From contig JAFTBN010000030.1 of the NCBI GenBank assembly GCA_017455185.1, positions 1 through 33,597 of the forward strand: a DNA stretch of 33,597 nucleotides, written 5' to 3'. Each line of letters opens with the position of its first letter. Positions within the stretch are counted from its first letter, which is position 1. The DNA comes from Clostridia bacterium. Its GTDB lineage: Bacteria; Bacillota; Clostridia; Oscillospirales; CAG-272. The translations under genes were made by a program, and so were the position numbers. Of this stretch, positions 184-31,247 are shown in pieces. A model generated the notes under the pieces. That model was not told the origin of the DNA. It did no database searches and saw nothing but the letters and a program-made list of their open reading frames with translations.

Positions 184-3099
184 TTGTTTGATAAAGTAAT
201 CTTCGACGAGGAGGATCTGGAAAAGGGCTCGGATATGAAGTCCAGACTTCAGACAAGAACTTTTTTGCCAAAGCAGAGAGATACAGATAACCGGGTTTTG
301 CCACATCAATTGTATTGGGGAGAACTGCACTTGATTCTAAATAACGCTTCAAAGTATCTTGCGTTTTTAAATGAGAAGGATGAGAGCGGCCTTTCTGTCC
401 AGGAAAAGATTGAGTCCATTTTCCTGTTCAGGATTCCTTATTATGTCGGACCGTTGAATCGTCATGCGCCGAATTCGTGGATGGTTCGAAAACAGGAAGG
501 AAAAATTTATCCTTGGAATTTCGAACAGATTGTTGATTTGGATGCGAGCGAGGATGAGTTTATAAAAAAACTCACCAATACCTGCACCTATCTTCCGGGC
601 GAAAAAGTGCTCCCCAAAGATTCTCTTATGTATCACAAATTCACCGTGTTGAATGAAATAAACAATATGAGAATCAACGGAGAAAGAATATCGGTTGAAT
701 TGAAACAGCGTATTTTCAATGAAGTCTTTCTAAAGAAGAAGAAAGTGACCCGTAAGTTTTTAACTTCGTGGATGATTCAGAACAGTTACTTGGAAAAAGG
801 AAAGGAAGAAGCGTTAACCGGGATTGATGAGGAAATCAAATCAAATTTGATTCCGCAAATCGCGTTCAAACAATTGATGGAATCTGGGACTTTGTCTGAA
901 ACAGATGTGGAGAGAATAATTGAGAGGGCAAGTTATGCCGAGGATAAGACCAGGTTATTAAAGTGGATGGAGCGGGAATATCCTTATCTGACAAAAGAGG
1001 ATTGCTTGTACATCGCTTCGCTGAAGATTAAAGATTTTGGAAGATTGTCGCGCAAGTTTTTGAATGAATTGACCGGAGTAGATTGCACAACCGGAGAAGA
1101 GACTACCATCCTGAATGCTATGTGGAATACTCAAAATAACCTTATGGAAATTGTGAGTGACCCGGATAAGTATACTTTTTCAAAGAGGATACAGGAATTC
1201 AAAACTGAATACTATTCGAATAATACGTCTTCTCTTGAGGATAAGTTGAATGAAATGTACCTTTCCAACACGGTGAAGCGTCAAGTATACAGGACTTTGG
1301 ATATTGTCAAAGATGTTTCGAAAGCTTTCGGTGCTCCGAAAAAAATATTTGTGGAAATGACCAGAGGAGGCACTGAAGACGAAAAAGGCAAAAGAACGAA
1401 ATCAAGAAAGCAGCAATTGCTTGAACTTTATGATGAATGCGCTGATGAGGACATAAGGCATCTGAAAGCCCAACTTGAAGAGATGGGTGAATTGGCCGAC
1501 AATAAACTGCAAAGCGAAAAACTGTTTTTATATTATCTGCAACTTGGTCGTTGTATGTATACGGGAAAACCGATTGACCTTTCTAAAATCGGAAACAGTT
1601 CCTACTGTGATGTAGATCACATTTATCCGCAGGCATACGTAAAGGATGACAGCGTCTTAAATAATAAGGTTCTTGTTTTTTCGGAAGAAAACGGAAAAAA
1701 GAGTGATAAATATCCTATTGCGGATAATGTTCGTCATTCTATGACGGCTTTCTGGTCATTTTTAAAGAATTCTAAGCTCATTACTGAAGAAAAATACAAA
1801 AGGCTTGTCCGTGCTACTCCTTTTACGGATGAGGAGAAATATGGGTTTATTAACAGACAGATAACCGAAACATCTCAATCGACGAAAGCGGTCGCTTCTT
1901 TGTTGAAGGAGTTTTATCCGGAAACAGAAATCGTTTATTCCAAAGCCAATTTAACTTCTGAATTCAGGCATGTATTTGATCTGTATAAGTCGCGTCTATA
2001 TAATGATCTTCATCACGCAGTAGATGCTTATTTGAATATTGTTGTCGGCAATGTTTACAATATGAAATTCACGAAGCAGTTCAATGTTCATCAGTCTTAT
2101 AGTATTAATGTGGAAACTGTTTTTTCTCATCCAGTTTACAGCAATGGTAAACTGGTATGGGATGGGCAGCCGATGCTGGGGAAGGTAAAAAAGACTGCAA
2201 TCAAAAATACAGCGCACTTTACCAAGTTTGCTTTCCTGAAAAAAGGTCAGCTTTTTGATATCATGCCCGTACAAAAGGATGATGGACTTGTGCCGATCAA
2301 AAAGAATATGCAGACTGAAAAATATGGGGGTTACAATAAACCTAAGGTGATGTGCTTTATTCCTGTAAAATTTAGCGCAAAAAAGAAGACTGATATTTTG
2401 ATAATGCCTGTTGAAATACTCTATTGTGATAGAGTTTTAAAGGATGAAGTGTTTGCAAAAGATTATGCAATATCCAGAATTAAATCGATTCTAGGGCTTG
2501 ATGTTTCGGAGATTTCTTTTCCTTTAGGAAGGAAACCTTGGAAAGTCAACACTGTGCTCTCTTTGAATGGGTTTAAAATATGTGTTTCCGGAACTTCAAG
2601 TGGTGGAAAGTGCTTGATTGCTCAGCCGATTATGCAGTTTGCATCAGACAATTATTGGAATTATTATTTAAAGAAGCTGGAAAAAATGAGTGAGAAAATG
2701 ACACGAATAAACTATATTTATGACCAAATATTTGATGTTGTAAACAAGGAAGACAATAATAAATTGTATGACCTATATGTAGATAAATTGAAGCATTCTG
2801 TTTATGCCAAACGTGTCAATTCGCCACTGACAATTTTGGAAGAAGGAAGAGAATTGTTTCTTTCACTAAGTATTATGGAACAGGTGAGAGTCTTATTGAA
2901 TATTCATCAATTGTTTGGTCGTGAGACTGGGGGAAGAGATTTGTCTTTGATTGGAGGCAAAGAACATGCTGCAGCTACTGTAAGTTTCAGTTCAACGGTA
3001 TCGAATTGGAAGAAATACTATAGTGATGTACGGCTATTAAATGTTTCAAGTTCGGGGCTTTGGCAAAAGGAATCTGTTAATTTGTTGTCTCTATTATGA
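184..3099 (+). CDS. cas9: CRISPR-associated endonuclease Cas9, type II, N-terminally truncated
   Basis: This is the C-terminal two-thirds of a type II-A-like Cas9. From the TTG at 184 it encodes 971 residues. The landmarks are the REC motif FRIPYYVGP with WNFE (about 82-114), RuvC-II KKIFVEMTRGG (386-396, Glu391), HNH DVDHIYPQ (His479) with NGKKSD (Asn503), RuvC-III HHAVDAYLN (His610, His611, Asp614), and a normal-length PAM-interacting region ending SSSGLWQKESVNLLSLL. Cas9-like sequence continues in frame upstream to about 145-157 (KEEFSKYLASLF, like the KEEFYKF region of SpCas9), then stops; an in-frame TAA sits at 121. RuvC-I with its catalytic Asp, the Arg-rich bridge helix and most of REC1, about 400 residues, are missing, and no other frame in 1-145 supplies them. 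The TTG has no convincing Shine-Dalgarno, so translation is doubtful. It is probably a pseudogene or an artefact of a contig edge. The gene is AT-rich compared with the chromosome that follows. Confidence 0.85.
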   Translation: MFDKVIFDEEDLEKGSDMKSRLQTRTFLPKQRDTDNRVLPHQLYWGELHLILNNASKYLAFLNEKDESGLSVQEKIESIFLFRIPYYVGPLNRHAPNSWMVRKQEGKIYPWNFEQIVDLDASEDEFIKKLTNTCTYLPGEKVLPKDSLMYHKFTVLNEINNMRINGERISVELKQRIFNEVFLKKKKVTRKFLTSWMIQNSYLEKGKEEALTGIDEEIKSNLIPQIAFKQLMESGTLSETDVERIIERASYAEDKTRLLKWMEREYPYLTKEDCLYIASLKIKDFGRLSRKFLNELTGVDCTTGEETTILNAMWNTQNNLMEIVSDPDKYTFSKRIQEFKTEYYSNNTSSLEDKLNEMYLSNTVKRQVYRTLDIVKDVSKAFGAPKKIFVEMTRGGTEDEKGKRTKSRKQQLLELYDECADEDIRHLKAQLEEMGELADNKLQSEKLFLYYLQLGRCMYTGKPIDLSKIGNSSYCDVDHIYPQAYVKDDSVLNNKVLVFSEENGKKSDKYPIADNVRHSMTAFWSFLKNSKLITEEKYKRLVRATPFTDEEKYGFINRQITETSQSTKAVASLLKEFYPETEIVYSKANLTSEFRHVFDLYKSRLYNDLHHAVDAYLNIVVGNVYNMKFTKQFNVHQSYSINVETVFSHPVYSNGKLVWDGQPMLGKVKKTAIKNTAHFTKFAFLKKGQLFDIMPVQKDDGLVPIKKNMQTEKYGGYNKPKVMCFIPVKFSAKKKTDILIMPVEILYCDRVLKDEVFAKDYAISRIKSILGLDVSEISFPLGRKPWKVNTVLSLNGFKICVSGTSSGGKCLIAQPIMQFASDNYWNYYLKKLEKMSEKMTRINYIYDQIFDVVNKEDNNKLYDLYVDKLKHSVYAKRVNSPLTILEEGRELFLSLSIMEQVRVLLNIHQLFGRETGGRDLSLIGGKEHAAATVSFSSTVSNWKKYYSDVRLLNVSSSGLWQKESVNLLSLL

Positions 3100-12463: not shown

Positions 12464-13642
12464 ATGGTGGAGATCGGCATCGACCGGGTGAGGGAACCCG
12501 AGTACCATAATCTGTTGTCCCGCGGAAGATTGGGAGTGATTTCCGCCGCTTCAGGCGTATCCTCCTCCTATCGGTATTCCATCGATCTTTTGCATGAGCA
12601 GTTCAACGTGGGAGGCATTTTTGCCCCGGAGCACGGCTCGCGCGGAATGCTGGGCCCGGGGGAACTGGTCAACGGAGGGGAGGATCCTTTTACGCATCTT
12701 CCCGTATACAGTCTGTATCAGGAATCCTATTCGGACAAAAAGGAGAAGAAGCGCGTCTTCGTTCCGACGGACGAATCCCTGCGGGGCATTGACCGGATGG
12801 TTTTTGACATGCAGGACGTCGGATCCCGCTATTTCACCTATGCTTCCACTCTGTATTATGCGATGCAGGCCTGCGGGGAGAAGGGAATTCCCCTGACGGT
12901 CCTGGACCGGCCGAACCCGCTGGGCGGGGCGGTTGAAGGAAACTGTCTGGACCCGAAGTACCGGTCTTTCATCGGACTGACGAGCGTGCCGATCCGGCAC
13001 GGGATGACCCTGGGCGAGCTGGCCCGGTTCTACAACGGAGAGTATCATCTGGGCTGCGACCTGAGCGTAATTCCGGTTAGGGGCTGGAAGAGGGAGATGT
13101 ATTTTGACGAGACCGGACTGCCGTTCGTGCGGCCCAGTCCCAATCTTCCCACCTTCGAGTCGGTGCTGGTGTACAACGGAACCTGCCTCTTTGCGGGAAC
13201 CAACGTCTCCGAAGGCCGGGGCACGACCTGTCCCTTTACCATCATCGGGGCGCCTTACATTAATCCGATCGAACTGGCCGACCGGCTCAACGCCGACCGG
13301 AGCATCGAAGGGGTGCGCTTCAGTCCGGCTTTCTTCATTCCTCTTTTCTCGGTATACAGGGATCAGAAGGCCTATGGGGTTCAGCTCCACGTGACCGACA
13401 AAAGGGCATTGCGCCCGGTTGCGCTCGGCGTGAAGATGATCGAGGCCATCCGGGAGCTTTATCCCGAAGAGTTCCGCTTTACGCCTCCTTCGGTGGAGGG
13501 AGCCCGCTGGCACGTGGACATCGCTTCGGGCAATACCGATTTGCGTCTGTCGGGACTGTCGTCGGACGAACTGATGGAAAAATGGAATGCCCAGGCGGAA
13601 CGGTTCCGCTCGGACAACGAAAAATATCATCTTTACGAATGA
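12464..13642 (+). CDS. namZ: DUF1343 protein, NamZ-type exo-beta-N-acetylmuramidase
   Basis: A 392-residue DUF1343 protein. The characterised member, Bacillus subtilis NamZ, removes MurNAc from the non-reducing end of peptidoglycan fragments. Conserved blocks are RLGVISAASGVSSSYRYSIDLL, FAPEHGSRG, DMQDVGSRYFTYASTLYYAM, VLDRPNPLGG, the SPNLPTFESVLVYNGTC segment and GTNVSEGRGTTCPFTIIGAPYI. Unlike secreted NamZ there is no signal peptide, so it should act in the cytoplasm on imported or recycled muropeptide sugars. The ATG at 12464 is chosen because the promoter -10 lies upstream at 12428. The next gene, a PTS permease with an EAL domain, begins 43 bp later, consistent with sugar uptake and breakdown in one operon. 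The symbol is used by family, not by shown activity. Confidence 0.85.
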   Translation: MVEIGIDRVREPEYHNLLSRGRLGVISAASGVSSSYRYSIDLLHEQFNVGGIFAPEHGSRGMLGPGELVNGGEDPFTHLPVYSLYQESYSDKKEKKRVFVPTDESLRGIDRMVFDMQDVGSRYFTYASTLYYAMQACGEKGIPLTVLDRPNPLGGAVEGNCLDPKYRSFIGLTSVPIRHGMTLGELARFYNGEYHLGCDLSVIPVRGWKREMYFDETGLPFVRPSPNLPTFESVLVYNGTCLFAGTNVSEGRGTTCPFTIIGAPYINPIELADRLNADRSIEGVRFSPAFFIPLFSVYRDQKAYGVQLHVTDKRALRPVALGVKMIEAIRELYPEEFRFTPPSVEGARWHVDIASGNTDLRLSGLSSDELMEKWNAQAERFRSDNEKYHLYE

Positions 13643-13685
13643 CAGCCGAATGGGGTTTGGCTTGACAGGCGGAAAGGATACGGCT

Positions 13686-15785
13686 ATGGGTACGAAAACA
13701 TCTTTCTTGAAGAATTTCACCTTGAAGCTGGAAAAGCTGACGCTGGTGCAATCGATTCGCACCGGCCTTGTCAGCATGATTCCGATCCTGATCATCGGCG
13801 CTTTGTCCCTGGTCTTCAAATCGTTCCCGATTGCCTGGTATCAGGAGCATCTGCCGGTTTTCCTGGACGGATTCTTCCTCAAATTGCTTGATGCGATTTA
13901 CAACGCGACCTTCGGTCTTTTGTCGGTCTATATGACCTTCTTCATCAGCCGGGCCTTCATGAAGGTGACGGCCGAACCCGATATCGTCAACGGAGGCGCG
14001 ATTGCCGCCTCGCTGGTTGCCTTTTTCATCCTGGCAGGAGCGTATCTGCCCGGTTTCGGATTGGATTCCACCGGTCCGAAGTCGATCTTTTTGGCCATTC
14101 TGACCGGCCTTCTGGCCTCAAGACTGTATCTGATTCTGTTCAAGTTCTTCCGCAGCAAGGAGCTGCGTCTGTTCTCCTCGGGGGCGGACAAGGAACTCAA
14201 CCGGATGCTTTCCACCCTTCTGCCGATTGCCATCGTGGCGATTTCCTTCGCGCTGTTCAACACGCTGATCATTCAGCTGTTTAAGGTGGAATCCTTCCGC
14301 GAGCTGCTCGCGAAATTCTTCAGTCTGTTCTTCTCCTGGGAGGGACCGGAATTCCTCAAGGGACTGCTGTTCGTGTTCCTGTCTTCACTGCTTTGGTTCT
14401 TCGGCATACACGGGAGCGATACGCTCGAGGACGTCATGGAGCATACGTTTACGCCGGGCCTTGCGGAAAATATGGCGGCGGTGGAAGCCGGAGAGACTCC
14501 CACGGTGATTCTGACCAAAGGCTTTTTCGATTCCTTTGTCCTGATGGGCGGCTGCGGTGCGACCATCTGTCTGCTCATCGCCATCCTTCTGTTCTCGCGG
14601 AACCGGGCCAGAAGGGGTCTGGGATACGCCGCGGCGTTCCCGATGCTGTTCAACATCAACGAACTCATGGTCTTCGGTTTGCCGATCATTTACAATCCGA
14701 TTATGCTGATCCCGTTTCTGGCGGTTCCGCTCGTCTTCTTCCTCGTTTCCTATTTTGCGGTGGCCGTGGGAATCGTTCCGGTCATCACTCATGCCGTGGA
14801 ATGGACCACTCCGATTTTCTTCGGCGGCTATTACGCGACGGGCTCGGTGGCAGGCTTGCTTCTTCAGGCGTTTAACCTGGTCATCGGCGTTTTGATTTAT
14901 TTCCCGTTTGTCCGCATCATGGACCGCCAGACCGAGGAAGCGTACAAGAACAACTTCAACGAGTTTGTGGCCTATTTCAAAGCCAACGAGTCGGATCTGC
15001 AGAAGGTCCGGATCTGCGAACTGGGCAACATTTACGGCGACTGCGCCAAGGACCTTTGCGCGGATCTGCGCCACGGACTGGAAAAGCAGATGCGCCTGGC
15101 CTATCAGCCGCAATACAACTATCAGGGCGAATGCGTGGGCGTTGAAGCCCTGATGCGCTGGGAGCATCCGCTCCATGGAATTCTGTATCCGCCGCTGGTT
15201 GTGAAACTGGCCGAGGAGACCGGACTTTTGGCCGAACTGGAGGAACTGGTGCTCAGGAAGGCACTGGAGGACAGGGAAGCGGTTTACCGCAAATTCGGGG
15301 AAAATATCAAACTTTCTGTCAATGTAACAGGGACCACGGTTTCGACCGAACGGTACATTCGGTATCTGAAAACCCTCAACGAGCAGGATCCCTTCAAAGG
15401 AAAGAACATCTGCATCGAGGTCACCGAGCAGGCGACGCTCACCTTTGACGACAACACCCGCAACGCCCTGCAGACCATGCACGAGATGGGACTCCTTCTG
15501 GCCATCGACGACTTCTCCATGGGACAGACGTCCATCCATTATTTGAAGGACAACATGTTCGATCTGATCAAGCTGGACGGTACTCTGGTCCAGGGACTGT
15601 TTTCCCACGCCAATACAAAGGAGATTGTGGGATCCATCGTCAAGTTGGCGCTCTCGCTCAACATGAATGTGGTGGCCGAATTCGTGGAGAAGGAAGAGGA
15701 AAAGGAAACCCTTCACGAACTCGGGTGCGATATCTATCAGGGATATCTGTATTCGCCGGCTGTTTTCCTGACGAAAAAGGATTGA
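13686..15785 (+). CDS. PTS EIIC-type permease fused to an EAL (c-di-GMP phosphodiesterase) domain
   Basis: A 699-residue fusion. Residues about 15-410 form a lactose/cellobiose-type PTS EIIC membrane domain, with GIHGSDT (about 240-246) and NINELMVFGLPIIYNP (323-338). The family usually reads NEP where this protein has NEL. Residues about 460-695 form an EAL domain with EAL (487-489), SVNVTG, IEVTEQ, IDDFSMGQTS (607-616), IKLDG, AEFVEKE and QGYLYS. The Glu, Asn, Glu, Asp-Asp, Lys and Glu residues expected for metal and c-di-GMP hydrolysis appear present. No GGDEF, EIIA or EIIB domain is seen. ATG 13686 follows GGAAAGGA and starts the membrane domain; the frame is open further upstream but overlaps namZ. 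Sugar passage may therefore regulate c-di-GMP, or the permease domain may serve only as a receptor. Confidence 0.9.
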   Translation: MGTKTSFLKNFTLKLEKLTLVQSIRTGLVSMIPILIIGALSLVFKSFPIAWYQEHLPVFLDGFFLKLLDAIYNATFGLLSVYMTFFISRAFMKVTAEPDIVNGGAIAASLVAFFILAGAYLPGFGLDSTGPKSIFLAILTGLLASRLYLILFKFFRSKELRLFSSGADKELNRMLSTLLPIAIVAISFALFNTLIIQLFKVESFRELLAKFFSLFFSWEGPEFLKGLLFVFLSSLLWFFGIHGSDTLEDVMEHTFTPGLAENMAAVEAGETPTVILTKGFFDSFVLMGGCGATICLLIAILLFSRNRARRGLGYAAAFPMLFNINELMVFGLPIIYNPIMLIPFLAVPLVFFLVSYFAVAVGIVPVITHAVEWTTPIFFGGYYATGSVAGLLLQAFNLVIGVLIYFPFVRIMDRQTEEAYKNNFNEFVAYFKANESDLQKVRICELGNIYGDCAKDLCADLRHGLEKQMRLAYQPQYNYQGECVGVEALMRWEHPLHGILYPPLVVKLAEETGLLAELEELVLRKALEDREAVYRKFGENIKLSVNVTGTTVSTERYIRYLKTLNEQDPFKGKNICIEVTEQATLTFDDNTRNALQTMHEMGLLLAIDDFSMGQTSIHYLKDNMFDLIKLDGTLVQGLFSHANTKEIVGSIVKLALSLNMNVVAEFVEKEEEKETLHELGCDIYQGYLYSPAVFLTKKD

Positions 15786-23170: not shown

Positions 23171-25387
23171 ATGAAGAACCTGATTAGAGTGCTTTCTGTT
23201 ATCCTGGCTCTCGTTATGGTAGTCGGCATTGTCGCTGCCTGCGGAAAAAAGGATAACGATAAGGAAAGCAAGAATGATGATTCCTCCAAGGTCGTTTATC
23301 AGGATATCGATGACGCTGATGTCGTTGAGCGCGATGATTTCACCTCGGTTTATGAGACAATCGGCGCCGGTATCACGATTGACGACGTGACCGAGAAGGA
23401 CGATGGTACGGCAACCGTTACCGTGGATGGCGTCACCTATGAACTGGGTATGGACTTCCTGTCCATGGCCATGGTTTATAACACGTCCGTTCCGGAAGGA
23501 AGCAAGTACAAGACCGAAGAGGAAGTCTACAACCAGTGGTGGAAACTCTACATCCAGAGATGGAACCTTCTGGTTGCCGAAATTCCGCTTTACTCCAACG
23601 AGTATTACGATCTGTACAACGCAAAATTCCAGAATTTCGTAACCTCTCCTTACTGGGGTGCTGTTGATGCCATCATCAAGACCACTGTCAAGGAAGGCGC
23701 TGAGAATTCTGCTATTCTGGGTAGCTCCACAGACTTGAGCGGCATGTTCCGTAATGCAAGCTGGGGCAAATCCAGTCCTGCCGCTTCCGACAACGATGTC
23801 ATGAGTCTGACCAGCGGCTATTCGACCGTCTATTCCGACATTACCGGTAACTATATCTGGAATATGCAGGCATTGGCTGAGGAGCCTACCTCCAAGATCA
23901 ATGAAGACGGTACTCTGACCTACACGATCAAGATCCGCGACGATATGAAGTTCTCTGATAACTCCGCTATCGATGCCCGCAACTACATTGTCGCTATTCT
24001 TTCCAACAGCACTCCTGTCGCGGTTGAAGCAGGCGGTTCCGGTTCTTCCGGCCGTACGCTTGTCGGCTATGATGCCTTCAAGAAAGGCGATTCCAAGTAT
24101 TTCAAGGGCGTTCAGCTGCTGGATGATTACACCTTTGCTGTAACCTTCACCTCTGACTATGCCGGATACTATTATGCCATGATCAATGCGGGCTTCAGCC
24201 CGGATCCGCTGCCTCTGTACCTCGGTACCAAGGGCGCGATTACCGTTGACCCCGAAACCAAGGCATGCGGCCTGAACGATGATTACTATGAAAAGAACTC
24301 CGACGGCAAGTATGTCGTTGCAGCCGAAATCGTTGCGAATATGAAGTGGGATTCCCCGCTGCCTTATTCCGGTCCTTACAAGGTGACCAACTACAACGAT
24401 TCCGATAAGACCGCTACCCTGACCCTCAACCCCGTATATCCGGGTGATGATGCTCGCGGCAAGCCCTCCATCGAAACCATTCACTATGTCAAAGTTGTTT
24501 CCGAGACCCAGATGGATCAGTTCAAGAGCGGACAGGTTGACGTTATTGCCGGCATCACCGGCGGTAAAGACACCGAAGCAGCTCTGAAGATCGTGAAGGA
24601 CAACCCTGAGAAGTACGCTGAAACTCACTATGACCGCGCAGGTTATGGTAAGATCGGTTTCCGCGCTGACTGGAGCCCTGTTCAGTTCAAGGAAGTCCGT
24701 CAGGCGATTATGTACACCATCAACCGTCCTGAATTCGCAGCTACCTTCACCGGCGGTTACGGTTCTGTGGTTCATGGCCCGTACTACACCGGATTCTCTG
24801 CTTACAAGGCAGTTGAAAACGACATCCAGCTCAACGCTTACACCTATTCTTCCGACAGCGCTATCCGCGTTCTGGAAGCAGGCGGCTGGATTTACAACAA
24901 GGAAGGCAAGACCTTCGTAAAGGGTACTGACGATGTCCGTTACAAGAAACTGAGCGGATATGAAAAGTCCAAGGAAAACCTCCACTTCAAGACAGTGGAC
25001 GGCAAGTATGCCACCGTTAAGATCAACGGCGAGTATTATATGCCTCTCGCAATCACCTGGTACGGCACACAGCCGAACGAAGTGACCGACCTGCTGGTTA
25101 CTGCATGGCAGAACAATCCGACAGCCACCACTGATATCGGTATGTATATCCAGTACATCTCGACCGAGTTTATCCCGGGCCTGTACGGCGAATACATGCG
25201 CAGTGAAGAGGATGGCTACGATGGAACCCCGAAGCTTTGCGCTATCAACTTCGCTACTTCCTTCAGCAGCGCTGCTTATGATTTCGCATTCAACTGGACC
25301 ATCGATCCGGACTACTATGAGACTTATTCTGCATACTACATCATGGACGATGCAGATTTCTATGCTGATTATTCCAAATCCAAATAA
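23171..25387 (+). CDS. Oligopeptide-type ABC transporter substrate-binding lipoprotein, SBP_bac_5-like
   Basis: A 738-residue solute-binding lipoprotein of the OppA/DppA (SBP_bac_5) type. Residues 1-24 are a signal ending in lipobox VAAC (Cys24), followed by an acidic linker. The canonical fold seems to start only near residue 177 (AILGSSTDLSGMFRNASWGK). It continues with DGTLTYTIKIRDDMKFSDNSAIDARNYIVAIL, the PYSGPYKVTNYNDSDKTATLTLNPVYPG segment, IETIHYVKVVSETQMDQFKSGQVDVIAGI and FKEVRQAIMYTINRPEF, all typical. It ends at NWTIDPDYYETYSAYYIMDDADFYADY, where ordinary members still have a C-terminal segment. That segment (QRWNLLVAEIPLYSNEYYDLYNAKFQNF) instead lies near residues 125-160. AAGGGG precedes ATG 23171. 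It presumably feeds the permease encoded downstream; the ligand is unknown. Confidence 0.9.
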   Translation: MKNLIRVLSVILALVMVVGIVAACGKKDNDKESKNDDSSKVVYQDIDDADVVERDDFTSVYETIGAGITIDDVTEKDDGTATVTVDGVTYELGMDFLSMAMVYNTSVPEGSKYKTEEEVYNQWWKLYIQRWNLLVAEIPLYSNEYYDLYNAKFQNFVTSPYWGAVDAIIKTTVKEGAENSAILGSSTDLSGMFRNASWGKSSPAASDNDVMSLTSGYSTVYSDITGNYIWNMQALAEEPTSKINEDGTLTYTIKIRDDMKFSDNSAIDARNYIVAILSNSTPVAVEAGGSGSSGRTLVGYDAFKKGDSKYFKGVQLLDDYTFAVTFTSDYAGYYYAMINAGFSPDPLPLYLGTKGAITVDPETKACGLNDDYYEKNSDGKYVVAAEIVANMKWDSPLPYSGPYKVTNYNDSDKTATLTLNPVYPGDDARGKPSIETIHYVKVVSETQMDQFKSGQVDVIAGITGGKDTEAALKIVKDNPEKYAETHYDRAGYGKIGFRADWSPVQFKEVRQAIMYTINRPEFAATFTGGYGSVVHGPYYTGFSAYKAVENDIQLNAYTYSSDSAIRVLEAGGWIYNKEGKTFVKGTDDVRYKKLSGYEKSKENLHFKTVDGKYATVKINGEYYMPLAITWYGTQPNEVTDLLVTAWQNNPTATTDIGMYIQYISTEFIPGLYGEYMRSEEDGYDGTPKLCAINFATSFSSAAYDFAFNWTIDPDYYETYSAYYIMDDADFYADYSKSK

Positions 25388-25595: not shown

Positions 25596-26636
25596 ATGGG
25601 AAAGTATATCGTTAAAAGATTTTTATATATCATTGTTGTCTTCTTTATTCTTTCTTTCATGCTTTTTATGATTTACAATATGCTTCCGATAGACAAAGCG
25701 GGACAGGTTGCCCGGGAGGAAGTGAAAGTAAATAAGAATATTGCGGATAAAGAAGCCTTTTATCGGGAACGCTATGAATTCTGGTCCAAAAGATTTGGAA
25801 CAGATGGAAATAAATTGCAAAGATACGGCCGCTGGTTAGGCATCTATCCTTACAGCGACAAGACTGTCGGGTTCAACGGGATGCTTCAGGGCAATTTCGG
25901 AGACTCTTCGGAATACGGAAAACCGGTTGTGGAAGTCTTTGTCGAACCGATGAAGAATACCATTCTGATTAACATCTTTGCTACTTTTTTGGCTTTGGGA
26001 ATCACTATCCCATTGGGTATTTTTTGTGCGGTGAAGCGGGGAAGCAAGAGGGATGTGGCCGTCCAGGTCGGGACCATCATCGGATACAGTCTTCCCACTT
26101 TCATCATTGCCATTGTCTTTATCTGGCTGTTTGCGGTGGTACTGAAGTGGTTCCCGGTATCCGGAACCAATACCGTCGGGTCGGAGACATGGCCTGCGGC
26201 AAAGCGGTTCTGGGATAAGATGTATCATCTGGCTCTGCCCCTGATTGTTATGACGTTCTGCTCACTGGGCGGCATGACGCGGTACGTCCGCGCCTCTATG
26301 ATTGAAGCCCTTTCCATGGACTGCATCAAGACCGCACGGTCTAAAGGCTTAAGGGAAAAGATCGTCATCTATTCGCACGCCTGGAGGAACGCGTTGATTC
26401 CGATTGTCACGCTGGTCGTCGGCTGGTTCCTGGGGATTTTCGGCGGTTCTTTGATGATTGAGAATATTTTCGCCATCAACGGAATCGGGCGTGTTTATTA
26501 TCATGCCCTTACGGTTTCGGACAACGAAGTCGTTCTGGCGTTGCAAATGTTCTATATTTTCATTTCGTTGGTCGGCAATTTGCTGATCGATATCATTTAC
26601 GGTTTCGTGGATCCTCGTATCCGCGTGAACAAATAA
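25596..26636 (+). CDS. Oligopeptide-type ABC permease, OppB/DppB-like
   Basis: A 346-residue permease with the N-terminal segment GKYIVKRFLYIIVVFFILSFMLFMIYNMLP typical of OppB/DppB, and a BPD_transp_1 domain in the C-terminal two-thirds. The coupling EAA-type loop is SMDCIKTARSKGLREKIVIYSHAWRNALIPIVT; the end GRVYYHALTVSDNEVVLALQMFYIFISLVGNLLIDIIYGFVDPRIR is a family mark. Compared with minimal OppB it carries extra residues (about 35-90) in the first extracytoplasmic loop. ATG 25596 is favoured because GGAG lies 9 nt upstream and the membrane helix begins at once. It forms the channel with the OppC-like protein, which starts 12 bp downstream. Confidence 0.92.
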   Translation: MGKYIVKRFLYIIVVFFILSFMLFMIYNMLPIDKAGQVAREEVKVNKNIADKEAFYRERYEFWSKRFGTDGNKLQRYGRWLGIYPYSDKTVGFNGMLQGNFGDSSEYGKPVVEVFVEPMKNTILINIFATFLALGITIPLGIFCAVKRGSKRDVAVQVGTIIGYSLPTFIIAIVFIWLFAVVLKWFPVSGTNTVGSETWPAAKRFWDKMYHLALPLIVMTFCSLGGMTRYVRASMIEALSMDCIKTARSKGLREKIVIYSHAWRNALIPIVTLVVGWFLGIFGGSLMIENIFAINGIGRVYYHALTVSDNEVVLALQMFYIFISLVGNLLIDIIYGFVDPRIRVNK

Positions 26637-26648
26637 GGAGGCTGAGAC

Positions 26649-28643
26649 ATGGAAGACGATAAGAAAAAGTCCTTTGGCTCAAAAGTCGCAGCCGCCTTTA
26701 AGACTCTGGGCCGCTGGTGTGCCCGGATGTTTATGGGTGCCAGCAAGACCATTTCCGAGGAAAACAGCAAGGATGCCATGGAAGTGGAAAAGCTGGAAAG
26801 CCCGGGAAGAATGGCTGTCAAGGTCTTCTTCCGCCGCAAACTGGCGGTTGGTGCCCTGGTGGTGCTGCTAGCGCTCTTTTTGCTGGTTTTCATCGGCCCT
26901 GCGATTTGGCCGATCGATCTGAACTATACGGACTCGGCTCAGGCAAACATAGGGCCGACCATGTCCATGCTCTCCGTCCCCAGCGGATTGAAGGGGCAGA
27001 TTGAGTCCATTGACAGTTTCGGTTCCTTTACCGTTGGGGTCAGCAAGGATCATACCCTGTATTACTGGGGAAACAAGACCAACAATCTGCTTGGAATCAA
27101 GTACACCGATTTCCCGGATGAGATTCAGCCCGGAAAAGTCTACATGGCTGCCGCCGGCCGGGATCATCTGGTTGCGGTGGTGATGGATTCCGAAACCGAA
27201 GGACATCTTGTCTTCTGGGGAAACAGCAACCGCGGTCAGTTCGGAAAGAATCTGGGCAGCAATACGGATGACCCGATTCTGGAACTTCCCGATGAAATCC
27301 GGACAGGAAAGCTGGAACTTTCCAAAATATCGCAGCTCGAAGCAACCGAACAGGTTTCTGCCATTGTATACGACGGACGTGTTTATTTCTGGGGGAACAC
27401 CAAATCCTGCCTGAACATGATTCGTACGCAGAATGCGGCAAATGCCATTACGGACAAAAACGCCGTCAAGGTTGCCCTGAGTAAATTCTATGCGGCTGTC
27501 CTGTATGACGACGGCACGTATCTCTCCTATGGAGAGGTTTCCAACAATTACTTCCGCGGAGAAACGGGCTATTCCTATCTGCAGGGGAAGGACGTGGACC
27601 TGGTTCCCGAACTTTCTTCTCACAAGATCGTGGATCTGGTTGCATCCAACAACAACTTTGCTTTCCTGCTTGACAATGGGGACATTCTCATTCAGGGCGC
27701 AGCCAGGGTGGAAAAGGACATTTCGCCCATTCCCACTGAGGAAAAGGTGATTTCACTTGCGGCCGGAACAAGTCATTTCGCCGCAGTAACCGACGCGGGG
27801 AAAGTCTATCTGTGGGGCACCTCCAACAATGGAGAGTGCAAGTTGAACGGTGAATCGGCCAGCCGGGTCTTTCTGGGTTCCTACCAGACCTATCTGGTGG
27901 ATGAGAACGGTGCCTTAGTCAAGTCGTGCGGTCTGAAAGGATATCTGTTCGGAACGGACAGCATGGGCCGCGATACCGCGAAGAGAATCGTTCACGGCGG
28001 CAGAATGACCATGACCATCGGTGCAGTTGCCGTTATCATCTCGTCGGTGATTGCCATCATCGTGGGATGCGTCTCGGGCTACTTCGGCGGTTGGGTCGAT
28101 ATGCTCCTGATGCGTATAACCGAAATCTTTTCGGCGATTCCGTTCCTTCCGTTTGCCATGCTTTTGTCCTATGTCCTGACGACACGGCCGATTTCCGAGA
28201 ATATGCGTATTTTCATCATCATGATGATTCTGGGTGTTCTTTCCTGGACGGGTCTTGCGCACATGATCCGCGGGCAGGTTCTGGCAGAGCGCGAAAAGGA
28301 ATTCGTCCTGGCGGCCAAGGCAATGGGCGTCAAGGAACGTCATATCGCGTTCAAGCACATTCTTCCGAATGTCATCTCGGTGGTCCTGGTCAGCATGACC
28401 CTGGATTTCGCGGGATGCCTTCTGACCGAGTCCGGTTTGTCCTACCTGGGATTCGGCGTTCAGCAGCCTCGCCCGACGTGGGGCAACATGCTCAACGGCG
28501 CAAACAACTCGATTGTCATCCAGAATTTCTGGTGGCAGTGGGTGTTCCCGGCAATCTTCCTTGGAATCGCAACCATTTGCATCAACATCATCGGCGATAC
28601 GCTCCGTGACGTTCTCGATCCCAAGAGTACGAGAGATAAATAA
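26649..28643 (+). CDS. OppC/DppC-like ABC permease with an RCC1/BLIP-II-like beta-propeller insertion
   Basis: A 664-residue protein, about twice the usual length. It has a cytoplasmic N-terminus, TM1 about 65-88, then roughly 315 inserted residues (about 115-430, DNA about 26991-27938), and resumes at FGTDSMGRD (434-442), the motif that normally precedes TM2. The rest is a normal DppC core, with the EAA loop EKEFVLAAKAMGVKERHIAFKHILPN (550-575) and LTESGLSYLGFGVQQPRPTWGNML. The insertion has seven RCC1-like units, each a beta strand plus an x-x-DGxVYxWG-type turn: DHTLYYWGN (134-142), GHLVFWGNSNRGQFG (185-199), DGRVYFWGN (242-250), DGTYLSYGE (288-296), NGDILIQGA (343-351), AGKVYLWGTSNNGE (383-396) and NGALVKSCG (420-428). 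Topology puts this propeller outside the cell, next to the SBP dock. AAGGAGG precedes the start. Confidence 0.92.
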   Translation: MEDDKKKSFGSKVAAAFKTLGRWCARMFMGASKTISEENSKDAMEVEKLESPGRMAVKVFFRRKLAVGALVVLLALFLLVFIGPAIWPIDLNYTDSAQANIGPTMSMLSVPSGLKGQIESIDSFGSFTVGVSKDHTLYYWGNKTNNLLGIKYTDFPDEIQPGKVYMAAAGRDHLVAVVMDSETEGHLVFWGNSNRGQFGKNLGSNTDDPILELPDEIRTGKLELSKISQLEATEQVSAIVYDGRVYFWGNTKSCLNMIRTQNAANAITDKNAVKVALSKFYAAVLYDDGTYLSYGEVSNNYFRGETGYSYLQGKDVDLVPELSSHKIVDLVASNNNFAFLLDNGDILIQGAARVEKDISPIPTEEKVISLAAGTSHFAAVTDAGKVYLWGTSNNGECKLNGESASRVFLGSYQTYLVDENGALVKSCGLKGYLFGTDSMGRDTAKRIVHGGRMTMTIGAVAVIISSVIAIIVGCVSGYFGGWVDMLLMRITEIFSAIPFLPFAMLLSYVLTTRPISENMRIFIIMMILGVLSWTGLAHMIRGQVLAEREKEFVLAAKAMGVKERHIAFKHILPNVISVVLVSMTLDFAGCLLTESGLSYLGFGVQQPRPTWGNMLNGANNSIVIQNFWWQWVFPAIFLGIATICINIIGDTLRDVLDPKSTRDK

Positions 28644-28660: not shown

Positions 28661-29680
28661 ATGGCATTACTTGAAGTGAAGAACCTCCATACGTATTTCC
28701 GCACCCGCAAGGGAACGGTGAAAGCGGTCAACGACGTATCTTACGAACTGGAAGAGGGAAAGACCATCGGCATTGTCGGTGAGTCCGGATCCGGCAAGAG
28801 CGTGTCGGCCATGAGCATTCTGCAGCTGCTGGACGGAAACGGCTATATAGCGGACGGACAGATTCTGTTTGAAGGAGTCGATCTGACCAAACTGTCCCAG
28901 ACTGAAATGTACGACGTCCGCGGCAACAAGATTTCGGTCATTTTCCAGGAGCCGATGACCTCCCTGAACCCTGTGTTCACGGTAGGGAAGCAGCTCTCCG
29001 AGCCGTTCATCATTCACCAGAATATGAACCGGAAGCAGGCTTGGGAAAAGTCGATCGACATGCTCTATCAGGTACAGATCCCGAACCCGGAACAGGTCAT
29101 CCGTCAATATCCGCATCAGCTGTCCGGCGGTATGCGTCAGCGCGTCATGATTGCGATGGCTCTGGCGTGCCGTCCGAAGATTCTGATTGCGGACGAGCCG
29201 ACTACGGCACTGGACGTGACCATTCAGGCGCAGATTCTTCGTCTGATGAACGATTTGCAAAGAGAAAACGGAACGTCCATCATTTTCATTACGCATGATC
29301 TGGGCGTTATCAACGAAATGGCCGATGACGTAGTGGTTATGTATTGCGGCCAGGTGGTGGAGCAGGCTCCGGCCAGCCTCATTTTCACCAACTGCAAAAG
29401 CAGCCACCCGTATACCGAAGGCCTGATGTACAGCATTCCTCGTCTGGAAAACATTACGGAAAAACTTGAGCCGATTCCCGGCTCGGTTCCGCATCCGCTC
29501 GCATTGCCGAAAGGATGCAAATTTGCTCCGCGCTGCAAGTATGCAACGCAGAAATGCTTCGAAGAAGAACCGGAGCTGGTGGCTATTTCCGACCAGCAGA
29601 AAATCCGGTGCTTCTATCCTGAAAAGGAGGTGAGAAACAGTGCAGAACACAAACAAGCTCTTGTCGATCACGAATCTTAA
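28661..29680 (+). CDS. Oligopeptide-type ABC transporter ATPase, OppD/DppD-like
   Basis: A 339-residue ABC ATPase of normal OppD/DppD layout. Walker A is GESGSGKS (40-47), the Q-loop FQEPMTSLNP (95-104), the signature LSGGMRQR (154-161), Walker B LIADEPTTALD (175-185), and the switch His is in ITHDLGV. The C-terminal oligopeptide-HPY region HPYTEGLMYSIPRL is followed by four cysteines in GCKFAPRCKYATQKC and RCFYP, the pattern that binds an iron-sulfur cluster in some DppD/OppD proteins. GGAGG precedes ATG 28661. It overlaps the OppF-like gene by 41 bp. It drives the importer with the OppF-like partner. Confidence 0.94.
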   Translation: MALLEVKNLHTYFRTRKGTVKAVNDVSYELEEGKTIGIVGESGSGKSVSAMSILQLLDGNGYIADGQILFEGVDLTKLSQTEMYDVRGNKISVIFQEPMTSLNPVFTVGKQLSEPFIIHQNMNRKQAWEKSIDMLYQVQIPNPEQVIRQYPHQLSGGMRQRVMIAMALACRPKILIADEPTTALDVTIQAQILRLMNDLQRENGTSIIFITHDLGVINEMADDVVVMYCGQVVEQAPASLIFTNCKSSHPYTEGLMYSIPRLENITEKLEPIPGSVPHPLALPKGCKFAPRCKYATQKCFEEEPELVAISDQQKIRCFYPEKEVRNSAEHKQALVDHES

Positions 29681-31247
29681 GAAGTATTTCCCGATAGCGA
29701 AGTCCAGCATTTTCCAGAAGGAACAGATGTATGTCCGTGCCAATGAGGACATTTCCTTTGATATTTACAAAGGGGAGACTCTGGGTATCGTGGGCGAATC
29801 CGGATGCGGAAAGTCCACGCTGGGACGTGTTATTCTTCAATTGTACGATCAGACAGCCGGAACGACCATATACTATGGCCGTACCCGCGCCGAACTGGCA
29901 CCCTCCTATGTCAGGAACACATTGAAGAATGTGCACAAGTTCATTGCAAAATACGAAAAGAAAAAGGACCATGCGGTAGACCTCAAAAAGCAGGTGAAGG
30001 CATTGGGTGAAGGTGCGACCTTTTATCAGATTCAGGAGATGAACCTGGCGATGTCCGAGGCCAAGACCGCCGAGCAGCATCTGGCTAAGATCCTGGGCGG
30101 ATTTATGGTCAGGGCAACGGACGAAGGCGCAAAACTCCTTTTGAACGAAGCACTGCTCGAGGAAAAGCAGGCCAAATTCCAGCTGAAGCTGGATGATGTT
30201 TCCCTCAGACTTGAGTCTTCAGAAAAGCCGGTGAAAAACAGAGAGGCTTTGGAAGCCAAGAAAGAAAAATTGAAAACGCAGATTGGCGATTTGCAGGTGC
30301 AGATTGACGCTGTCACGGATGAGATTGCAAAACTCAAGAAATCGTTTTCGGACGATCCGGAATTTGCACGGTTTGAGGAAATGCTGGATGACGGAATCGA
30401 TCTGGCCCGGTTGAAGTATTCCGAAATGCGTCTTTTGCGCAAGGATCTGCAAATCATTTTCCAGGATCCGTATTCATCCCTGAACCCCCGTATGACCATT
30501 GGTCAGATTATCGAGGAAGGCCTTGTCACGCATAAATTCTTCCGTCGCGGAGATCCGCAGATGAAGGATTATATTCTGGAAATCATGCGCAAGTGCGGCC
30601 TTCAGGATTACATGATGCATCGGTATCCCCACCAGTTCTCCGGCGGTCAGAGACAGAGAATCTCCATCGCGCGCGCATTGGCCGTTAAACCGAAATTCGT
30701 GGTTTGCGACGAATGCGTATCCGCTCTTGACGTTTCGATTCAGTCTCAGATTATCAACCTGCTGCAGGATCTGAAGGAAAAAGAAGGCCTGACCTATATG
30801 TTCATTTCCCATGACCTTTCGGTTGTCCGGTATATTTCGGACCGGATCTGCGTCATGTATCTGGGAAATGTGGTTGAGTTTGCGGATGCGGATACGATTT
30901 TCCGCGATCCCCGTCATCCTTATACGGTCGCGCTGCTTTCCTCCATCCCGACAACGGATCCGGAAAGCCTGAAGAAGGAGAGAATTCTTCTGGAAGGGAA
31001 TATTCCTTCTCCGATTCGCCCGCCTGAAGGCTGCAAGTTCCATACGCGCTGCTATATGGCTTGCGATATCTGCAAACGGGTTCCGCCTCAACTGGAAGAG
31101 ATTGAGCCGGGTCACTTCCTGGCTTGCCATTTCCCGAATCGTAAGATCGACGAGAATGGAAATTATCTCTTTGAACTGCCTAAGATGGAGCGTAAAAACC
31201 GCAGAGTGGAAGAACCCGTTCAGGTTCAGACACCGTTGCAGGATTAA
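29640..31247 (+). CDS. OppF/DppF-like ABC ATPase with a long helical insertion
   Basis: A 535-residue ATPase, about 200 longer than standard OppF. Walker A is GESGCGKST (52-60). The Q-loop IIFQDPYSSLNPR appears only at 272-284, whereas normally 30-50 residues separate them. The intervening region (about 80-265) is highly charged and helical, with heptad-like stretches such as REALEAKKEKLKTQIGDLQVQIDAV, suggesting a coiled coil projecting from the ATPase core. The remainder is normal: signature FSGGQRQR (333-340), Walker B VVCDECVSALD (353-363, Cys replacing the usual Pro after DE), switch His in ISHDLSVV, HPYTVALLSSIP, and a Cys-rich tail (GCKFHTRCYMACDIC). The start is GTG 29640 behind a perfect AAAGGAGG. 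It overlaps oppD by 41 bp, so translation is probably coupled. Confidence 0.93.
   Translation: MQNTNKLLSITNLKKYFPIAKSSIFQKEQMYVRANEDISFDIYKGETLGIVGESGCGKSTLGRVILQLYDQTAGTTIYYGRTRAELAPSYVRNTLKNVHKFIAKYEKKKDHAVDLKKQVKALGEGATFYQIQEMNLAMSEAKTAEQHLAKILGGFMVRATDEGAKLLLNEALLEEKQAKFQLKLDDVSLRLESSEKPVKNREALEAKKEKLKTQIGDLQVQIDAVTDEIAKLKKSFSDDPEFARFEEMLDDGIDLARLKYSEMRLLRKDLQIIFQDPYSSLNPRMTIGQIIEEGLVTHKFFRRGDPQMKDYILEIMRKCGLQDYMMHRYPHQFSGGQRQRISIARALAVKPKFVVCDECVSALDVSIQSQIINLLQDLKEKEGLTYMFISHDLSVVRYISDRICVMYLGNVVEFADADTIFRDPRHPYTVALLSSIPTTDPESLKKERILLEGNIPSPIRPPEGCKFHTRCYMACDICKRVPPQLEEIEPGHFLACHFPNRKIDENGNYLFELPKMERKNRRVEEPVQVQTPLQD

Follow-up and report, generated by a model that had tools for sequence, protein, structure and literature searches.

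The OppC-type permease encoded in the window (the whole stretch of DNA analysed, 33,597 nucleotides in length) carries an internal seven-bladed propeller of the RCC1/BLIP-II type, a predicted fold that is supported by profile matches and by structural comparison of the model. The propeller lies between the first two transmembrane segments (TM1 and TM2). Permeases of this architecture form one clade with a fixed operon order, that is, a conserved subfamily of the Opp/Dpp importers, which probably goes back to one insertion into the TM1–TM2 loop. As to its role, we lean towards the view that the propeller serves as a platform on which the binding protein OppA docks and is aligned, coupled to opening of the importer.

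The OppC frame (26649–28643, on the forward strand, as are all parts of the operon given below) runs through 664 amino acids without interruption. In Pfam, it matches OppC_N at residues 51–103 (1.1e-10) and the ordinary permease core, BPD_transp_1, at residues 469–659 (28053–28625; 9.7e-34). Against the whole protein, the RCC1 profile PF00415 scores 31.4 bits and the RCC1_2 profile PF13540 scores 27.5 bits, exceeding their curated cut-offs of 21.7 and 22, respectively; the RCC1-like family WD40_RLD matches residues 118–400 (1.9e-33), with its 116.7 bits falling below the curated cut-off of 150. TM1 (about residues 65–88; 26841–26912) falls within the OppC_N match and aligns with TM1 of the solved OppC from E. 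coli (8z21_B). Residues 37–105 align weakly to residues 11–78 of this reference and residues 430–660 align to residues 80–301, the core match reaching 3.7e-52 (phmmer), with the ordinary OppC sequence resuming at the FGTDSMGRD motif (27948–27974). Since the alignment breaks between TM1 and the FGTD.GRD motif, the loop of the reference has no room for a domain at the site of the propeller. The original prediction had described a normal TM1, an insert at 26991–27938 (residues 115–430) and a return at FGTDSMGRD to a normal core; Pfam and the alignment agree with this description, and the insert is almost exactly the propeller. In the OppC family, the N-terminus is inside the cell and the EAA loop is cytoplasmic. 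From this established topology and the alignment to 8z21_B, the loop that holds the propeller should be extracellular.

The propeller comprises residues 112–428 (26982–27932; about 317 residues). An AlphaFold2 model, computed from an alignment of four sequences (the window OppC and three relatives), has seven blades of three to four strands each at residues ~110–430, with pLDDT values mostly of 80–90 in the strand blocks and of ~40–55 in several loops; the transmembrane parts of the same model are poor (pLDDT ~40) and not usable. The core strands of blade 1 occupy residues 118–141 (27000–27071) and end in the WG motif W140-G141. Blades 2 and 3, at residues 164–191 (27138–27221) and 227–249 (27327–27395), have their WG-type positions at W190-G191 and W248-G249, respectively. 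Blade 4 (residues 272–294; 27462–27530) is degenerate, also at its WG-type position (~291–295), and is followed by blade 5 (327–350; 27627–27698) with G350, blade 6 (367–392; 27747–27824) with W389-G390 and blade 7 (399–427; 27843–27929) with 427-G428. Structural searches with the model (Foldseek, VIA-align) returned UVR8, BLIP-II, RPGR and RCC1, matched over residues 103–437 with Z of ~22. In VIA-align, UVR8 (6xzn) was matched with Z 22.3 over 279 residues (rmsd 3.6) and BLIP-II (1jtd) with Z 22.0 over 250 residues (rmsd 2.9), and Foldseek matched UVR8 at 3.8e-15. As this would be an extracellular bacterial domain, guanine nucleotide exchange on Ran is not expected of it.

More than 55 relatives have their insertion at the same point as the window OppC. 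Samples of 394 genomes from the order, 391 from the class and 398 from the phylum contained 29, 17 and 14 genomes, respectively, that encode full-length proteins of this kind (RCC1-OppC), a few genomes being shared between samples; the carriers represent at least 21 families (by the family codes of the genome set), and three named MAG contigs, two from Lachnospiraceae and one from Christensenellaceae, add to them. Three checks named in the original prediction bear out the architecture: RCC1 profiles above curated cut-offs, seven blades in the model, and long OppC homologues that share both the insertion point and the operon. In a tree built from the permease core without the insert (83 rows; rooting not established), one branch, supported at 100/99, has all 58 RCC1 rows on the same side. 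Because whole-protein profile searches could miss members without the insert, 295 genomes of the order were also searched with the core alone. The 21 best matches (299–500 bits) were long frames of 586–667 amino acids, save for one partial frame of 439 amino acids in which most of the propeller is still matched; below these, the score fell to 246 bits, for a shorter frame. Neither the core tree nor this search of 295 genomes revealed a propeller-less member inside the clade. For the sampled set, the tree and the gap in the search rule out repeated independent insertions, and a single ancient insertion followed by retention would fit these sequences best. No free RCC1 protein that might have been the donor was found outside OppC in the 60 nearest genomes at E 1e-8, and no match to plasmids reached 80% coverage of the window OppC.

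In the window, OppC is preceded by an OppA-type lipoprotein (23171–25387; 738 amino acids; SBP_bac_5) and an OppB-type permease (25596–26636; BPD_transp_1), and is followed by the ATPases OppD (28661–29680; ABC_tran, oligo_HPY) and OppF (29640–31247; 535 amino acids; oligo_HPY and an ABC_tran match split around an insert). The order OppA–OppB–OppC–OppD–OppF is found in all 36 RCC1 loci with enough flanking sequence, counting two in which OppA is cut by a contig end (L102, L106) and one in which it is broken (L113); a 37th, L002, shows B–C–D–F up to the contig ends. At L113 (4572–6859), the OppA gene adjoining RCC1-OppC is split into two frames of 217 and 405 amino acids, and a second, longer OppA-like gene lies beside it. 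With OppC_N and BPD_transp_1 above the Pfam cut-offs, an SBP_bac_5 protein, a second permease and two ATPases with oligo_HPY, the system is a member of the Opp/Dpp type I ABC importers, and by family membership its substrates would be oligopeptides. There is no Rfam match in the window and hence no linked regulatory RNA was seen there. No conserved partner gene was seen beside the operon: M3 oligopeptidases are the sole recurring neighbour family, at fewer than a quarter of the loci, and they also flank control operons without the propeller. Such genes adjoin the operon at L098:3047–4759, L101:13400–15400, L107:14256–15929 and others.

Two further features of these operons, on which the original prediction was silent, concern OppF and OppA. 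The OppF insert (about residues 84–245; 29889–30374) lies between Walker A and the Q-loop and is probably helical, judging by the appearance of its sequence. An insert of ~120–160 amino acids is present in 35 of the 36 readable RCC1-Opp loci, L101 being the exception, and is absent from the OppF proteins (337–430 amino acids) of eight control operons of the same order that lack the propeller. No OppA similar to the RCC1-Opp type was found beside these eight control operons either.

The window OppA, as far as its sequence tells, is circularly permuted. Its residues 178–714 correspond to residues 42–550 of the canonical OppA of L099, and its residues 94–173 correspond to the C-terminal residues 566–638 of the same protein; residues 56–93 were assigned by eye against L094. 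The segment at residues 56–173 (23336–23689), which is C-terminal in canonical binding proteins, thus sits N-terminal, after the lipobox. In the solved OppA 9p48, residues 17–86 match profile positions 204–278 (weakly), residues 171–311 match positions 403–554 (7e-20) and residues 505–558 match positions 124–177 (3e-6). AlphaFold2 modelling of the permuted OppA with four sequences reached a mean pLDDT of 40.6. The permuted order is found in 11 loci (the window, L031, L032, L033, L088, L091, L092, L093, L095, L105 and L107), whereas the order is canonical in L094, L096 and L097, their nearest relatives. The tree of the binding proteins needs one or two changes of order, with one in 52% of the bootstrap trees, so that a single origin of the permutation is possible. 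The propeller accompanies both permuted and canonical OppA. No description of a natural circular permutation of a substrate-binding protein was found in the open-access literature searched; such an example from an Opp binding protein would help in studying how the fold evolved.

Other OppC lineages of the same order (L006, L007, L008, L010 and L023–L029) carry inserts of ~200–350 amino acids at the same site, between OppC_N and GTD..G. Unlike the propeller, these have no RCC1 repeats and no Pfam match, and they lie on separate branches of the core tree. The TM1–TM2 loop of OppC has the look of a hot spot for insertions. Operons with the second type of OppC insert encode OppD ATPases (L124:6678–8888 and L125:6742–8913) of ~723–737 amino acids, in which an insert of ~400 amino acids splits the ABC domain. 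Elsewhere in the window, 13587–15785 encodes a 732-residue protein in which a PTS EIIC domain is joined to an EAL (cyclic di-GMP phosphodiesterase) domain, and 184–3099, near the contig start, encodes a Cas9-type protein with REC, HNH, RuvC and PAM-interacting domains, the N-terminal part of which is apparently missing from this frame.

Within the clade, mean conservation is lower in the propeller (1.75 bits) than in the core (2.99 bits). Most conserved residues of the propeller are structural residues of the RCC1 repeats, and no conserved non-structural pocket residues are evident in it across the clade. The flanking linkers are strongly conserved, with P103 at 96% and P111, G428, G431 and G435 at 100%. 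A fast-evolving propeller between conserved linkers would suit a rigidly mounted module with a variable, partner-specific surface. After the divergence of the OppC core, the OppB core, OppD and the OppF core had been removed, propeller distance correlated with that of OppA (partial r 0.60; rank 0.41–0.43) and of the OppB outer loop (partial r 0.43; rank 0.41–0.47). With the cytoplasmic OppF insert, a partly saturated control, the correlation was weak (partial r 0.13; rank 0.11–0.20). The lengths of OppA and OppC also co-vary (r 0.80), which is partly phylogeny. Indirectly, this suggests that the outer parts, namely the propeller, OppA and the OppB outer loop, evolve together; given the partial saturation of the control, the evidence is moderate, and shared rates or that saturation can also account for the pattern.

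On these grounds, we favour, by a modest degree of belief, the docking role. The propeller would rest on the membrane's outer face, right above TM1 and TM2, held by the two conserved linkers, and, probably together with the OppB outer loop, would dock and align the lipoprotein OppA. Ligand-loaded OppA would thereby be placed above the translocation path, and its docking would be coupled to opening, much as MalF P2 does for the maltose-binding protein; this likeness is an analogy, as the fold and the loop differ. As for the original prediction of an extracellular docking, sensing or gating module, the placement accords with the established topology and the role is plausible, with docking supported indirectly by the way in which the propeller diverges in step with OppA and the outer loop of OppB. 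Two considerations count against it: other Opp systems dock their binding protein without any such domain, and the TM1–TM2 loop may simply tolerate insertions, as the other inserts indicate. A more far-reaching reading, which we hold only tentatively, is that these systems constitute a separate class of ABC peptide importers. The propeller, the OppB outer loop and the large binding protein (permuted in one branch) might then form a composite outer receptor that evolves as a unit, the propeller selecting or gating import, with the helical arm of OppF as a second added module on the inside.

It is rather unlikely that the propeller is itself the substrate receptor, a surface trap for peptides or larger ligands that are then passed to OppA or the permease. 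Propellers often bind ligands, fast variation would suit changing ligands and M3 oligopeptidase genes lie near several operons, but those peptidases also stand beside the propeller-less controls, the operon already has a binding protein and the clade shares no evident pocket residues beyond the structural ones. A little less likely still is that the propeller anchors the importer to the cell wall, a secreted protease or a host or food protein, where peptides arise. BLIP-II and RCC1 do bind proteins (PMC9218822) and the topology places the domain outside the cell; nevertheless, no consistent partner gene lies near the operon, and the divergence of the propeller tracks the operon's own outer parts. 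That the propeller is a structural embellishment without specific function, tolerated by an insertion-prone loop, would accord with the other inserts at the same place in OppC lineages of the order, yet it is improbable given that all members of the clade in the sampled order retain the propeller and that its repeats and linkers are preserved over wide divergence. The link to beta-lactamases and penicillin-binding proteins at which the original prediction had hinted finds no support here. BLIP-II is among the best structural matches, but the likeness is at the level of the fold (~20% identity), UVR8, RPGR and HERC2 match about as well and no recurrent gene of that kind occurs among the flanking families, which makes a BLIP-II-like sensor or inhibitor on a transporter very improbable. 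The window genome is fragmented (83 contigs), but a misassembly, which the original prediction had allowed for, or a gene fusion artefact is refuted, as is chance: more than 55 proteins encoded by independent genomes share the insertion point and the architecture, with single-contig assemblies (G435, G452) among the carriers.

In textbook Opp importers, the permease amounts to a minimal channel, and it is the free binding protein that recognises the substrate. The window operon shares its five-subunit plan with known Opp/Dpp importers (E. coli OppABCDF, 8z21, and DppBCDF, 8z1v; M. tuberculosis Rv1280c–1283c, 8j5q, and DppABCD, 8wd9; Opp4 of NCBIfam), including OppC_N with BPD_transp_1, an SBP_bac_5 lipoprotein and OppD and OppF with oligo_HPY. 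Nevertheless, there are clear differences. The solved OppC and DppC chains have 287–302 amino acids and a short TM1–TM2 loop, whereas RCC1-OppC proteins have ~600–700 and a propeller; OppF here has an extra insert, and the window OppA is circularly permuted. The window OppC reaches no NCBIfam equivalog cut-off, its best match being Opp4C (NF045476) with 294.2 bits over the core only, below the curated cut-off of 350. In the open-access papers searched, no description of RCC1 together with OppC, a permease or an oligopeptide ABC transporter was found. The architecture is thus apparently undescribed, although absence from the open-access literature is no proof of novelty. Found in a conserved lineage that spans many families of one phylum, and combining a propeller permease with a modified ATPase and with a binding protein that is enlarged or permuted, it could serve as a natural system for the coupling of docking to gating. 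The OppC insert has the repeat motif, the seven blades and the Z of ~22 in common with the propellers of RCC1, BLIP-II and UVR8, but the latter occur as soluble proteins or within eukaryotic ligases and receptors as domains, whereas here a loop of a membrane permease harbours the fold. The closest functional parallel would be MalF P2, which is borne outside the cytoplasm by a loop of the maltose importer permease and makes contact with the maltose-binding protein (PMC3150292 and references therein). By topology, the propeller is likewise an extracytoplasmic domain inserted in a permease loop of an ABC importer; MalF P2 differs in its unrelated fold and in the loop that carries it, and the contact with the binding protein is, for the propeller, a putative one.
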